Assembly (NCBI RefSeq): GCF_003977755.1
Contig: NZ_RQWN01000005.1
Span: forward strand, 186,001-250,000
DNA: 64,000 nt
Reading direction: 5' to 3'
Origin: Haloterrigena salifodinae
GTDB taxonomy: Archaea > Halobacteriota > Halobacteria > Halobacteriales > Natrialbaceae
Shown here: positions 16,762 through 21,214 of the stretch, in pieces
Layout: every line of letters begins with the position of its first letter
Numbering within the stretch: the stretch's first letter is position 1
Program-made: the position numbers and the translations under genes
Notes under the pieces: model-generated
The model's input: only the letters and a program-made list of their open reading frames with translations
Told to the model about the DNA's origin: nothing
Databases searched by the model: none

Positions 16762-19485
16762 TCAGGCATAGAACAGCGGCGGTCGTCGACCCCCACCGTA
16801 CTCCTCGTCGGAGAGGTGGACCTCGAGCGCGGCCTCGCCCTCGTTACCTAGCAACTGATCCAGCACGTCCACGGCCGCGTCGCGGTGCAGCGGCTGGTTG
16901 TCGTTGCCACACTGGTCGTCCATCACGCAGGCCGGACAGCCGTCGACGTTCCCGCAGTCGCAATCCGCGATGAGGTCTCGAGCGCGTTCGGCGACGGCCT
17001 CGTAATTCTCGTAGATCGCCCGTGCGAAGCCCAGCCCGCCCTCGATCCCGTCGTAGATGAACCAGCCGCTGGCGGGCGTGCGCTCGAGGCCGTTCGCGAT
17101 CTCCCGCACCGTGGCCTCGGCCGCGGCGATGTTTCGCGGCGCGCCGTCACCGCCTGGGCTCCCCGCAGCACCGAACCCCTGGTTCCCGTCCGCCTCCGCT
17201 CCTTGCTCCTGATCGAGATGAGAATCGATTGTCAACGTCGCCAGCCCGCCCAAATCGCGTTTGTCGACCATCAACTCGAGCGGGGCGACGCCGATTGTCG
17301 CGTGTTCGGCGGCGTGGAGGCCCCCCGCGTAACCGAGGTGGGCCGTCTCGGCCAGCCCGTCCTCGAGTTCGGGCACCTCGAAGCTCCGGTACTTCTCGAT
17401 CAGCGCCCGCTCGACGTACTGGGGGACATCGAGCCAGCACAGTTGGGTCTCCATCTCGAGCGGCGGGTTCTCGGTGGGGATTCCCTGCTCTTTCTTCTTG
17501 CCGCCGTGGACCGCGACCTTGTCGTAGGTGCCGTGGTAGACGAGTACCCGGCCGCGGCCGAAGTGGAGCGTGAAGTCGCCGATGTCGCGGGACTCCTCGG
17601 AAACCGCGTCGAGGACCGTTACGTCGGTTCGGGTGCGCGTGTAGTAGTCGACGTCCGTCGGGTGGACCGTCACCGAGGGCCGTGGTGCGCCGTGGTCGAC
17701 GTCGACGACCTCGTACTGCTGGCCCTGGTGGAGCCGAACCGCGCCCTCGTGGAAGTCCCGCAGCACGCGCTCCCTCGCCAGCGGCTCCATTCCCGGATCG
17801 TGGTGCTTGTCGACGCCGTCCGCGAGGTCGACCTCGTACTCCTCACCCGTCGTCGCGTACAGCGAGATCGTCTGCTGCGGACGGGGCGGTCCCACGTAGG
17901 AGACGCCCGTCTCGAGGCGTCCCCGCAACTGGCCCGCGCGCCGCCACATCTCGATCGCCCGCTCGAGGCGCTCGCGGTCGGCGAGCGCACCGACGTCCGA
18001 CTCGTCAATTGCGAGTTCGTCGGCCGCACAGCGCAGGTGCTGGGCGAACACCGCGTCGTTGTCCACGTCGACAACCGCGTCCTCGACGTCGGACTCGAGG
18101 AGGTAATCGGGGTTGTTCACGACGTACTGGTCGAGCGTGCGGTGCTCGGCGACGAGCACCGAGAGCGCGCGCTTCGTTCCGCGACCCGCGCGGCCGATCT
18201 GCTGCCAGAACGACTGGCGCTGGCCCGGATAGCCCAGTTGGACTGTCGCGTCCATCTCGCCGATGTTGATCCCCAGCTCGAGGGCGTTCGTCGAGGCGAC
18301 GCCGTCCAGCACGCCGGTCTTGAGCTGGTGTTCGGTGCCGTGGCGCTTCTTCCGTGAGTGGCCCGCGTGGTAGGGCTCGATCGCACTCCCGCGGTCGGGG
18401 TTCGTGTAGTAACGCCGGTTATCGTGACGGTGTTTCGACGCCCGCTTGACCGAGAGTTCGGCGAGTTTCCTCGAGGGAGTAAACAGCAGCGTCTGGGCGT
18501 CGTTGTAGGTCAGATTCGAGAGTAGCCGCGGGGCCTCGACGGTGGCGGGGACGCGCTCGACGACGGTGTCCCCTGAGTCGGGATCGCCGGTGGATTCGGT
18601 CTCGGCGTCGTCCTCGCGCCACTCGTCGCGCTCGTCCGCTGTGTCTTCCCGCGCTCGAGGGGGCGGATTCCAGAGCACGAGATCCCGCGGCCCCGTCGGC
18701 GAGCCGTCCTCGTCGACGACGGTCACGGACTCGTCGATCAGCGCCGCGGAGTGCTCGCCCGGGTTGCCGATCGTCGCGCTTGTCAGGACGAACTGCGGGT
18801 CTGCGTCGTAGTACTCGAGGACCCGCTTCAGCCGGCGGACGATCCAGGCGACGTGCATTCCGTGGACGCCCGTGTAGGTGTGGGACTCGTCGATCACGAC
18901 GAGGTCACAAGCCGAGAGGAACCGCGCCCAGCGGTCGTGGTCGTGGAGGTACGTGTTCACGCCCGCGAAGTTCGAGATGATGACGTCGGCTTCCTTGCGG
19001 ATCCGCTTGCGGTTGCTCCCGCGCTCGGTGTCGCCGTCGTAGACGCGGACCGTGATCTCGAGGCCCAACTGATCGAAGAGGTCGTTCAACTCGCGCTCCT
19101 GATCCCGCGAGAGCGCCTTCGTCGGGTAGAGGACGTACGCCGTCGCGTCCTCGTTCCGGGCGCAGGCCTCGAGGTAGTTTCTGGCGATCTGCAGCGCGTA
19201 GATCCGGGTCTTCCCCGAGGACGTGCTCGTCGCGACGCAAATGTTCTCGTCGCGGGCCAGCGCCTCGAGTGCTTCCGCCTGATGCGAATAGAGATCGTGC
19301 TCGAGCGGATCGGCCAGTTCGGGGCGGAGCGCGCGCTCGTTCGGGACGGTCGACGCCTCTCGACCGGGGCGCTCGAGGACGGTGATGTCGTCCTCGTCGC
19401 GATACCCGGGGAAGGTGTCGACCAGTTCGTCGCCGGTAACCGGGACGTCCGCATCTCCGAATTCGGGGTCTCGTTCGCTGCTCAT
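16762..19485 (-). CDS. MrfA-like DEAD/DEAH-box helicase with C-terminal four-cysteine zinc domain
   Basis: A 907-residue superfamily 2 helicase. Motifs in order: Q-like 'LYSHQAEAL' (65-73), Walker A 'TSTSSGKT' (86-93), 'YPTKALSRDQ', DESH at 199-202, 'LTSATIGNP' (motif III), then the second RecA domain with 'TNALELGINIGEMDATVQLG' and 'QQIGRAGRG' (motif VI). After a beta-rich region the C-terminus carries the DUF1998-type cysteine cluster 'CDCGNVDGCPACVMDDQCGN'. This architecture is that of Bacillus MrfA (YprA), which works with the exonuclease MrfB in mitomycin C lesion repair. The exonuclease gene directly precedes it with a 3-nt gap, so the two are one operon. Confidence 0.88.
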   Translation of the reverse strand: MSSERDPEFGDADVPVTGDELVDTFPGYRDEDDITVLERPGREASTVPNERALRPELADPLEHDLYSHQAEALEALARDENICVATSTSSGKTRIYALQIARNYLEACARNEDATAYVLYPTKALSRDQERELNDLFDQLGLEITVRVYDGDTERGSNRKRIRKEADVIISNFAGVNTYLHDHDRWARFLSACDLVVIDESHTYTGVHGMHVAWIVRRLKRVLEYYDADPQFVLTSATIGNPGEHSAALIDESVTVVDEDGSPTGPRDLVLWNPPPRAREDTADERDEWREDDAETESTGDPDSGDTVVERVPATVEAPRLLSNLTYNDAQTLLFTPSRKLAELSVKRASKHRHDNRRYYTNPDRGSAIEPYHAGHSRKKRHGTEHQLKTGVLDGVASTNALELGINIGEMDATVQLGYPGQRQSFWQQIGRAGRGTKRALSVLVAEHRTLDQYVVNNPDYLLESDVEDAVVDVDNDAVFAQHLRCAADELAIDESDVGALADRERLERAIEMWRRAGQLRGRLETGVSYVGPPRPQQTISLYATTGEEYEVDLADGVDKHHDPGMEPLARERVLRDFHEGAVRLHQGQQYEVVDVDHGAPRPSVTVHPTDVDYYTRTRTDVTVLDAVSEESRDIGDFTLHFGRGRVLVYHGTYDKVAVHGGKKKEQGIPTENPPLEMETQLCWLDVPQYVERALIEKYRSFEVPELEDGLAETAHLGYAGGLHAAEHATIGVAPLELMVDKRDLGGLATLTIDSHLDQEQGAEADGNQGFGAAGSPGGDGAPRNIAAAEATVREIANGLERTPASGWFIYDGIEGGLGFARAIYENYEAVAERARDLIADCDCGNVDGCPACVMDDQCGNDNQPLHRDAAVDVLDQLLGNEGEAALEVHLSDEEYGGGRRPPLFYA

Positions 19486-19488
19486 GGG

Positions 19489-21129
19489 TCAGAAATCACT
19501 CAGTCCAGTCTGTTCGCTCTCGGTGCCGCTACCGCCGCTCGAGGGACGATCGGTCGTCGTTCGGTCCGTCGCGTCGGTCTCACGAGAGTCGGATTCGGAT
19601 CCAGATTTAGAACCCGAGACGCCGGTCCTCGAGGGAGAGTCTCTCGAGCTAGCGTCCGCTCGCGGCGCGTCCTGAAGTCGCTCGTAGACGTGCCAGAGTG
19701 CCCGACAGTCGTCCTCGCAGTAGGCCTCGTGGCGGTCCCACTCCAGTTCCGCGCCCGTGCGCATGAACCGCTGGTAGGCCGCGGCCGTCGCTGCGCCGTC
19801 GAGTCCCGTCGCCGCGTCCTCGTAACCCAGAGCTTCGGCGACAGCCTCGAGTTTGTTGGTCCGGCCGGGCAGCAGGGCGTTGTCGCTTTTCACGGCCCAG
19901 AGGTAGAGATCGAACTTGGGGATCGACTCCCACTCGTCGGCGTAGTAGGGGACGTGCTTCGCGATGAATGCGCCCAGATGCCGGTAGTCGAATCCCCAGC
20001 CGTTCCACGTGAGCAGCGCACGGTCCGGGTGCATTCCCAGCAACCAGTCGCAGAAGGCCCCGAGCACCGAGGCCGGATCCGTCGGATCGTCGCGCTCGAC
20101 GAACGCCCGGTAGGTATCTGCAACGGGGTCGTAGACGCCGATCTGCCAGATAATCGTCGGCGAGAGGCCGTCGGTCTCGATGTCCACGCACAGCGGCGGC
20201 GTCGACCAGTCCGCGCCCGGCAGCGACTCGTCGGTGAGCCGACGGGGCTCGCCGGTCTCGAGCACCCGCGCGTGTTTGTGCATCGTCCGGGCGCCGTCGC
20301 GGCCGACGTTCGGCAGCCCAGCGAGCGTCTCGAGCGGCGTCTCGAGTAGTTCCTCTCGAGTCGTCACGCCGCGCTCTGCGAGTCGTTCGGCCGTTTTCGG
20401 ACCGATGCCGGAGACGGCCTCGAGGCCGAAGTCGGTCACGTCGTGCGTCTCGACGCGCTCGACGCCGTCGGGAGCGAGCGTCAGCACTGCGATCGATCGA
20501 GAGCGACCATACCCCTCGACGGGGCCGGCACCCCGAACGCGGACGGAGATGCAGTCCTCGTCGAGCGGTTCGACGCCGGCGCGTAGTTCGTGGTCGACGC
20601 TGCGGACCGCGCCAGTTCCGGGCTCGAGGTGCCACAACTCGTCGTATTCCGCCGGCTCGGTTCCCGTCAAGAGGGTCGTAACTGTTCCCGCCGGGAGTGC
20701 GCTTGCCAGCGTCTCGGCGCCCTCGAGGCTGGTCTCGAGGGCCGTCGGCCGGACGGTCGTCGCCACGTCGTCGCAGACGAGCGCAGTGCGGTCGTCTCCA
20801 TCCCCAAGCGTGCTCGAGGCGGATTCGGGATCCGAGCGGAGCACCCGGAGGCTCTGGGCGACGGCGATCTCGAGTTCGGCTCCGTCGCCGTCGGCGATCA
20901 CGTGACGGTGAACCGGCTCGTTTCCGCCGGTCTCGAGCGGCGGGTGAAATGCCGGCGCATCGAACGCGCTGCGAGCCCGGGCGAACGCCTGCGGCTTGCG
21001 GGCCGGCCCCAGCACCCAGATGGCGTCGGGCTCGAGGGTCCGATCGATGTCCTCGAGGGTCGCGACGGGGCGGTCGGCCAGCGCCGACGGCGGAAGGGCG
21101 AGAAGGCGGACGCCGGCTCGAGCGGTCAT
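19489..21129 (-). CDS. DEDD-type exonuclease (RNase H-like) with helix-hairpin-helix, MrfB/YprB-like
   Basis: A 546-residue protein. Residues 236-290 form a helix-hairpin-helix DNA-binding unit ('VSGIGPKTAERLAERG', 'LAGLPNVGRDGARTM'). Residues 313-480 are an RNase H-fold exonuclease with all acidic motifs of the DEDDy class: D316-x-E318 ('CVDIETDG'), N376-G-W-G-F-D381, and Y470-C-E-D-D474. The first 230 residues are unassigned, and the last 55 are a Ser/Thr/Asp-rich tail. The ATG at 21129 was chosen because upstream in-frame residues are basic. In Bacillus MrfB is the exonuclease partner of MrfA; here nuclease and helicase are adjacent in the opposite order. The nuclease is divergent from thyA. 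Confidence 0.82.
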   Translation of the reverse strand: MTARAGVRLLALPPSALADRPVATLEDIDRTLEPDAIWVLGPARKPQAFARARSAFDAPAFHPPLETGGNEPVHRHVIADGDGAELEIAVAQSLRVLRSDPESASSTLGDGDDRTALVCDDVATTVRPTALETSLEGAETLASALPAGTVTTLLTGTEPAEYDELWHLEPGTGAVRSVDHELRAGVEPLDEDCISVRVRGAGPVEGYGRSRSIAVLTLAPDGVERVETHDVTDFGLEAVSGIGPKTAERLAERGVTTREELLETPLETLAGLPNVGRDGARTMHKHARVLETGEPRRLTDESLPGADWSTPPLCVDIETDGLSPTIIWQIGVYDPVADTYRAFVERDDPTDPASVLGAFCDWLLGMHPDRALLTWNGWGFDYRHLGAFIAKHVPYYADEWESIPKFDLYLWAVKSDNALLPGRTNKLEAVAEALGYEDAATGLDGAATAAAYQRFMRTGAELEWDRHEAYCEDDCRALWHVYERLQDAPRADASSRDSPSRTGVSGSKSGSESDSRETDATDRTTTDRPSSGGSGTESEQTGLSDF

Positions 21130-21214
21130 TGATGGTCGGGAGGCGGGCGGCGACAAAGAGGGTTTGGACACCGGAGTGAAAGTGATGTGACTCGAGCGTC
21201 GGGAAACGCGAACG

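Follow-up and report, generated by a model that had tools for sequence, protein, structure and literature searches.

The closest described relatives of the locus analyzed here are helicase and exonuclease pairs of the MrfAB type. In Bacillus subtilis, MrfA translocates 3'-5' and MrfB digests DNA 3'-5' (PMC11194089; PMC12458937), with His258 as a catalytic residue of MrfB (PMC11194089). Among archaeal repair proteins, NreA and Hef mutants are sensitive to mitomycin (PMC4929162, PMC7776575), and repair of mitomycin damage by haloarchaeal NreA is dependent on its PCNA-interacting peptide (PIP box) (PMC4929162), for which the consensus QxxLxxFx was given in H. volcanii (PMC7776575). Haloarchaeal DNA repair has been studied in detail, yet YprA and MrfA both go unmentioned in a large review from 2020 on replication and repair in Haloferax, and no specific literature was found on haloarchaeal YprA, COG1205/COG3359, or a link between PCNA, exonuclease, and calcineurin.

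The pair studied here lies in a window of 64,000 nt, i.e., the whole stretch of Haloterrigena salifodinae DNA that was analyzed (contig NZ_RQWN01000005.1, positions 186,001 to 250,000). An exonuclease gene is followed after a gap of 3 nt (nt 19486-19488) by a helicase gene, both on the minus strand, and the open reading frames of the window agree with the initial annotation, which had placed the helicase directly 3' of the exonuclease with this spacing. The features are as follows:

19489..21129, minus strand: exonuclease gene, 546 aa from ATG, with phosphoesterase-like domain, helix-hairpin-helix (HhH), DEDDy RNase_H_2 domain, linker, and PIP box
20434..21129, minus strand: predicted calcineurin-like metallophosphoesterase fold with catalytic motifs lost, exonuclease residues 1-232 (AF2 model, fold matches, motif loss)
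20266..20424, minus strand: HhH, DNA binding, exonuclease residues 236-288 (PF14520, E 1.5e-10)
19675..20193, minus strand: RNase_H_2 3'-5' exonuclease domain, DEDDy, residues 313-485 (PF13482, E 3.8e-29)
19513..19617, minus strand: disordered variable linker, exonuclease residues 505-539 (pLDDT <50)
19492..19512, minus strand: PIP box QTGLSDF, residues 540-546 (79 of 80 loci)
16762..19485, minus strand: YprA/MrfA-type SF2 DNA helicase gene, 907 aa
18766..19287, minus strand: DEAD domain, helicase residues 67-240 (PF00270, E 8e-27)
18181..18516, minus strand: Helicase_C domain, helicase residues 324-435 (PF00271, E 1.2e-12)
16924..17310, minus strand: MZB Zn-binding domain (formerly DUF1998), helicase residues 726-854 (PF09369, E 1.3e-15, above cut-off)
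16909..16962, minus strand: helicase cysteine cluster C842, C844, C850, C853, and C859 (all five invariant in 40 of 40)
16765..16788, minus strand: C-terminal end of the helicase, RRPPLFYA, shared within the chromosomal subclade

Of these features, the phosphoesterase-like N-terminus and the PIP box of the exonuclease had escaped the initial annotation. The genes thyA, folA, and purD are found next to the pair. The exonuclease and thymidylate synthase (thyA) genes are divergent with annotated starts less than 60 nt apart (21130-21186), and thyA is kept in 27 loci. As the haloarchaeal source genome holds a single MZB helicase, the pair supplies the sole MrfA-like helicase there.

Residues D316, E318, D381, D474, and Y470 of the exonuclease were invariant in 62 of 62 relatives, which together with the PF14520 match supports its earlier description as a DEDDy enzyme with HhH. 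The exonuclease model recovered the PolB exonuclease-domain fold with a Z of 16.3, and the listed matches of the whole model were filled by polymerase exonuclease domains; MrfB (8un9) was absent among these listed matches, which does not count against MrfB. Sequence searches of the exonuclease against the PDB returned HhH matches only, and 8un9 was absent among the best 60 matches listed (down to E 0.073) in the profile search. An identity with TIGR03491 (TM0106 RecB-like) was set aside, as this match is weak, below cut-off, and spans HhH and exonuclease, while the N-terminal domain is not RecB-like. About 19 kb beyond the window, the source genome also encodes a stand-alone RNase_H_2 protein of 250 aa (L031:1447-2199), which is DEDDy and carries no PIP box; proteins of this type are common among haloarchaea and also elsewhere in the phylum.

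For exonuclease residues 1-232, no confident Pfam match was obtained. Folded alone, they reached an AF2 pLDDT of 92.4, and the best 50 VIA-align rows were all calcineurin-like phosphoesterases that spanned the whole domain, with Rv0805 as the top match (Z 11.0, rmsd 3.8, 176 residues). Foldseek E-values were weak with 1.2e-3 at best. Almost all of the 62 aligned rows had lost the metal-binding motifs GD, GN[HD], and GHxH or showed gaps at their positions, the alignment being approximate there. Judged by its model, the N-terminal domain is a calcineurin-like phosphoesterase fold without the catalytic residues.

The same domain order was found in a haloarchaeal plasmid protein of 481 aa (L189:4269-5711), in which the phosphoesterase is intact (PF00149, E 3e-9) and which adjoins Cdc6, SRAP, and DNA polymerase B genes. 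In the catalytic-domain tree, it was the sister of the window exonuclease clade (99/96). The root of this tree is not fixed, and the ancestor was likely, from the sequences compared, an active phosphoesterase-HhH-exonuclease, which would later have lost its phosphoesterase activity and gained the PIP box and the helicase partner. Both L189:4269-5711 and L117:5269-6714 combine an intact calcineurin-like phosphoesterase with HhH and DEDDy exonuclease beside Cdc6, SRAP (SOS-response peptidase), and a type B DNA polymerase, and 10 plasmids carry a protein of the L189 type over most of its length.

In 79 of 80 loci, the exonuclease terminates in the motif Q-x-x-[LI]-x-x-[FW], the exception being L042, which is interrupted in the assembly. 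Of the 2787 other open reading frames of these loci with 150 codons or more, 8 ended in this way (Fisher p ~1e-143, a value that ignores relatedness). Among 78 counted loci, the motif Q..[LI]..[FW] took 28 different forms with only the anchor residues (Q, L/I, and F/W) fixed, and it persisted across exonucleases down to ~31% identity. It was absent in archaeal MrfB and in the stand-alone relatives. The FEN1 of the source genome ends in QTGLDRWT, and one PCNA gene was found in this genome. Through its PIP box, the exonuclease tail is predicted to bind the PCNA sliding clamp.

In the helicase, Walker-A K92/T93, DE-H, and R432/R435 were invariant in 40 of 40 relatives. The DUF1998 type and the C-terminal four-cysteine cluster described earlier were recovered, with one more cysteine. 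In the helicase tree, which is unrooted and holds few bacterial rows (one MrfA and one Nocardia helicase), 27 window-type helicases filled one side of a branch with a support of 100, and MrfA, archaeal MrfA, and haloarchaeal "YprA-only" helicases were placed on the other side. The "YprA-only" helicases also outscored the window-type helicases against MrfA. On this tree, the window helicase is a haloarchaea-only branch outside the MrfA group. Its C-terminal tail reads RRPP[LI]FY[AS] in the chromosomal subclade and RPPASIS in the plasmid subclade, is missing elsewhere, and may be a short binding motif. A related genome that lacks the exonuclease contains a decayed copy, a fragment 88% identical to helicase residues 609-907 (G034:C88:187576-188460).

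Conserved adjacency in other haloarchaea had been proposed as a check of the pairing, and it was found at nearly every locus. Sixty-one exonuclease loci were detected in 56 of 145 haloarchaeal genomes. At 60 of them, a helicase gene follows in the same orientation at a distance of no more than 450 nt, and at the remaining one the helicase is 1.5 kb away. Public genomes provided a further 80 named loci, each from a haloarchaeon, and in 80 of 80 the helicase was located just downstream, with gaps mostly of -4 to +3 nt. Exonuclease and helicase trees were correlated with a Mantel r of 0.96 (75 pairs), a value reached in 0 of 2000 permutations. Four species carry two pairs, and in these the partners of a pair always belong to the same subclade. 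The full exonuclease appeared in haloarchaea only in a phylum-wide search, and no true relatives occurred in the viral contigs searched. In 27 Natrialbaceae-type loci, the pair occupies one fixed site beside thyA, most also with folA and purD; outside of these loci, its contexts are varied, chromosomal as well as plasmid, and often plasmids. One plasmid copy is that on pHS3 of Halobacterium salinarum R1 (exonuclease OE_RS12870, helicase OE_RS12865). The pair is real, well conserved, and apparently undescribed in the accessible literature.

Some pairs of the plasmid subclade are located inside a gene cluster, as on the Haloprofundus halobius plasmid NZ_CP083669.1 (L114:337-12028) and also in L119, L077, and L101. 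The order in this cluster is a PLD-like gene, two small proteins, a ThiF+JAB protein, a second MZB helicase, and then the pair, with the second MZB helicase being absent in L119. In appearance, the cluster is an as yet undescribed island for defence or repair.

The initial annotation had taken the pair as an archaeal counterpart of MrfA-MrfB. The enzyme classes, the adjacency, the co-inheritance, and the full-length likeness of the helicase to the MrfA structure (6znp; profile E 1.1e-156, positions 12-788) uphold this in part, but an identity as the same gene pair is not supported, both genes falling outside the MrfA and MrfB clades. In the exonuclease tree, which is unrooted with some long branches and thin bacterial sampling (one MrfB), B. 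subtilis MrfB and the archaeal DEDDh MrfBs formed a group (98/98) with the window exonuclease outside. A nuclease outside the MrfB clade had been named beforehand as speaking against the counterpart, and at the clade level this is what the DEDDy exonuclease proved to be. The phylum does contain true MrfB-MrfA operons, but outside the haloarchaea. Of 39 non-haloarchaeal genomes searched, 15 carry a DEDDh exonuclease with HhH, and in 13 of these its gene is followed by that of an MZB helicase; the remaining two carriers had no helicase match at E 1e-20. With the profile of this DEDDh family, B. subtilis MrfB was recovered at E 5.9e-39, which identifies the family as the true archaeal MrfB. These exonuclease-first operons comprise L127-L143 with L153-L169 (e.g., L127/L159 and L142/L153). 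Neither the reversed gene order nor the HhH, both initially listed as differences from Bacillus, sets the window pair apart, as the archaeal operons are also exonuclease-first and their DEDDh MrfBs carry HhH too. That the window pair is a haloarchaeal MrfAB orthologue diverged beyond recognition is very improbable: besides the enzyme classes and adjacency, the exonuclease-first order and a profile likeness of HhH and exonuclease to archaeal MrfB (E 2.3e-18) would suit such an origin, but the exonuclease is DEDDy instead of DEDDh and has its place with another, DEDDy, family (98/98, 99/96), and the helicase stands outside the MrfA group (100), while haloarchaea also carry a "YprA-only" helicase nearer to MrfA. 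On sequence grounds, the window pair is a helicase with a DnaQ-fold exonuclease that is not a member of MrfAB.

The distribution of the pair bears on its role. Its presence in only 56 of 145 haloarchaeal genomes and its frequent plasmid copies indicate that it is dispensable, which counts against a repair function, as do the plasmid copies adjoining ThiF/JAB, PLD, and second-helicase genes, which are more like a defence or mobile island. The patchy distribution, the plasmid-borne copies, and this clustering of one plasmid subclade with PLD-like, ThiF+JAB, and second MZB helicase genes would be expected of an anti-virus or anti-plasmid defence, in which invading DNA would be unwound by the helicase and destroyed by the exonuclease, in the manner of other YprA-family defence systems; DISARM, Dpd, and Druantia all have a YprA helicase at their core (PMC12458937). 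We consider this unlikely, however, since the Natrialbaceae pair sits at the fixed thyA/folA site without an island and a PIP box suggests a link with the replication and repair machinery of the host. PADLOC scores of the window helicase and of MrfA were 120 and 111 bits for DruE1, and 118 and 160 bits for SngC, respectively; matches to Druantia, SngC, and BrxH were set aside as an identity of the helicase, as the repair helicase MrfA scores alike. Genes that accompany YprA-type defence systems, such as those for methylase, PLD nuclease, and BrxH, were not found beside the window pair, where thyA, folA, and purD are located. The PIP box would also suit a PCNA-bound nuclease for fork or plasmid maintenance, which would act on R-loops or on 3' ends that are stalled or displaced instead of excising chemical lesions, and the closest relative of the exonuclease is the plasmid protein beside the Cdc6, SRAP peptidase, and DNA polymerase B genes. 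As this relative lacks both helicase partner and PIP box, its context need not carry over, and such a role is regarded as doubtful.

With a probability of roughly 0.55, the sequence evidence favors reading the window pair as one PCNA-tethered 3'-5' helicase-exonuclease machine for damaged or stalled DNA, which would be MrfAB-like in its working and a separate haloarchaeal assembly. The fixed thyA/folA site of the 27 Natrialbaceae-type loci suits such housekeeping. The helicase, using its Zn-containing "canopy", would translocate 3'-5' on single strands and open the duplex at a lesion or stalled fork, and the HhH-DEDDy exonuclease would then digest the exposed 3' end, removing the 3'-ended strand; the polarities of both steps are presumed by analogy to MrfA and MrfB. 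The PIP box on its flexible linker would hold the exonuclease on PCNA and place the pair at sites of replication or repair synthesis, while the dead phosphoesterase domain may be kept as a scaffold that probably binds the helicase or DNA. In eukaryotic replicative polymerases, the B-subunits are dead phosphoesterases and offer an analogy for such a scaffold role. We infer the physical complex, the repair role, and the lesion type of the pair. For mitomycin repair that depends on PCNA, NreA offers a haloarchaeal precedent (PMC4929162), and the crosslink or adduct repair suggested initially would be one candidate role. Only tentatively, the pair could represent a haloarchaea-specific PCNA-clamped repair pathway that was built independently of MrfAB from a plasmid-type phosphoesterase-HhH-exonuclease, with the dead phosphoesterase as scaffold.

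The pair is present in over a third of the sampled haloarchaeal genomes. The PIP box sharpens the vague label "MrfAB-like", and three point changes in the tail should abolish function if the PCNA-dependent repair reading is true. The same helicase-exonuclease logic would have been built twice with different exonuclease families, and the true MrfB-MrfA operons found elsewhere in the phylum are now exposed as a control.

Compared with known systems, the window pair shares the C-terminal PIP box or PCNA link of the PCNA-bound archaeal repair proteins NreA, NucS, and Hef, which are unrelated proteins and have no MrfA-type helicase. DISARM, Dpd, Druantia, ARMADA, and BRIGADE also have a YprA-type helicase with an MZB domain, but their nucleases are different and none of their partner genes adjoin the window pair. 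The plasmid protein L189:4269-5711 has the phosphoesterase-HhH-DEDDy exonuclease order and a sister catalytic domain, and differs by its intact phosphoesterase motifs and the lack of PIP box and helicase partner. The archaeal MrfB-MrfA operons are alike in exonuclease-first order, HhH with RNase_H_2, and MZB helicase, whereas they are DEDDh, match MrfB strongly, and carry neither phosphoesterase domain nor PIP box. With B. subtilis MrfA/YprA (6znp) and MrfB/YprB (8un9), the pair has in common an SF2 helicase with MZB adjoining a DnaQ-fold RNase_H_2 exonuclease. MrfB is DEDDh, whereas the window exonuclease has Tyr at the catalytic position (62 of 62) and, instead of the C-terminal TPR domain of MrfB, a disordered linker and PIP box. 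While the dead phosphoesterase domain, HhH, PIP box, and leading exonuclease gene are additional to B. subtilis MrfAB, the logic of unwinding and 3'-5' digestion is probably common to both.
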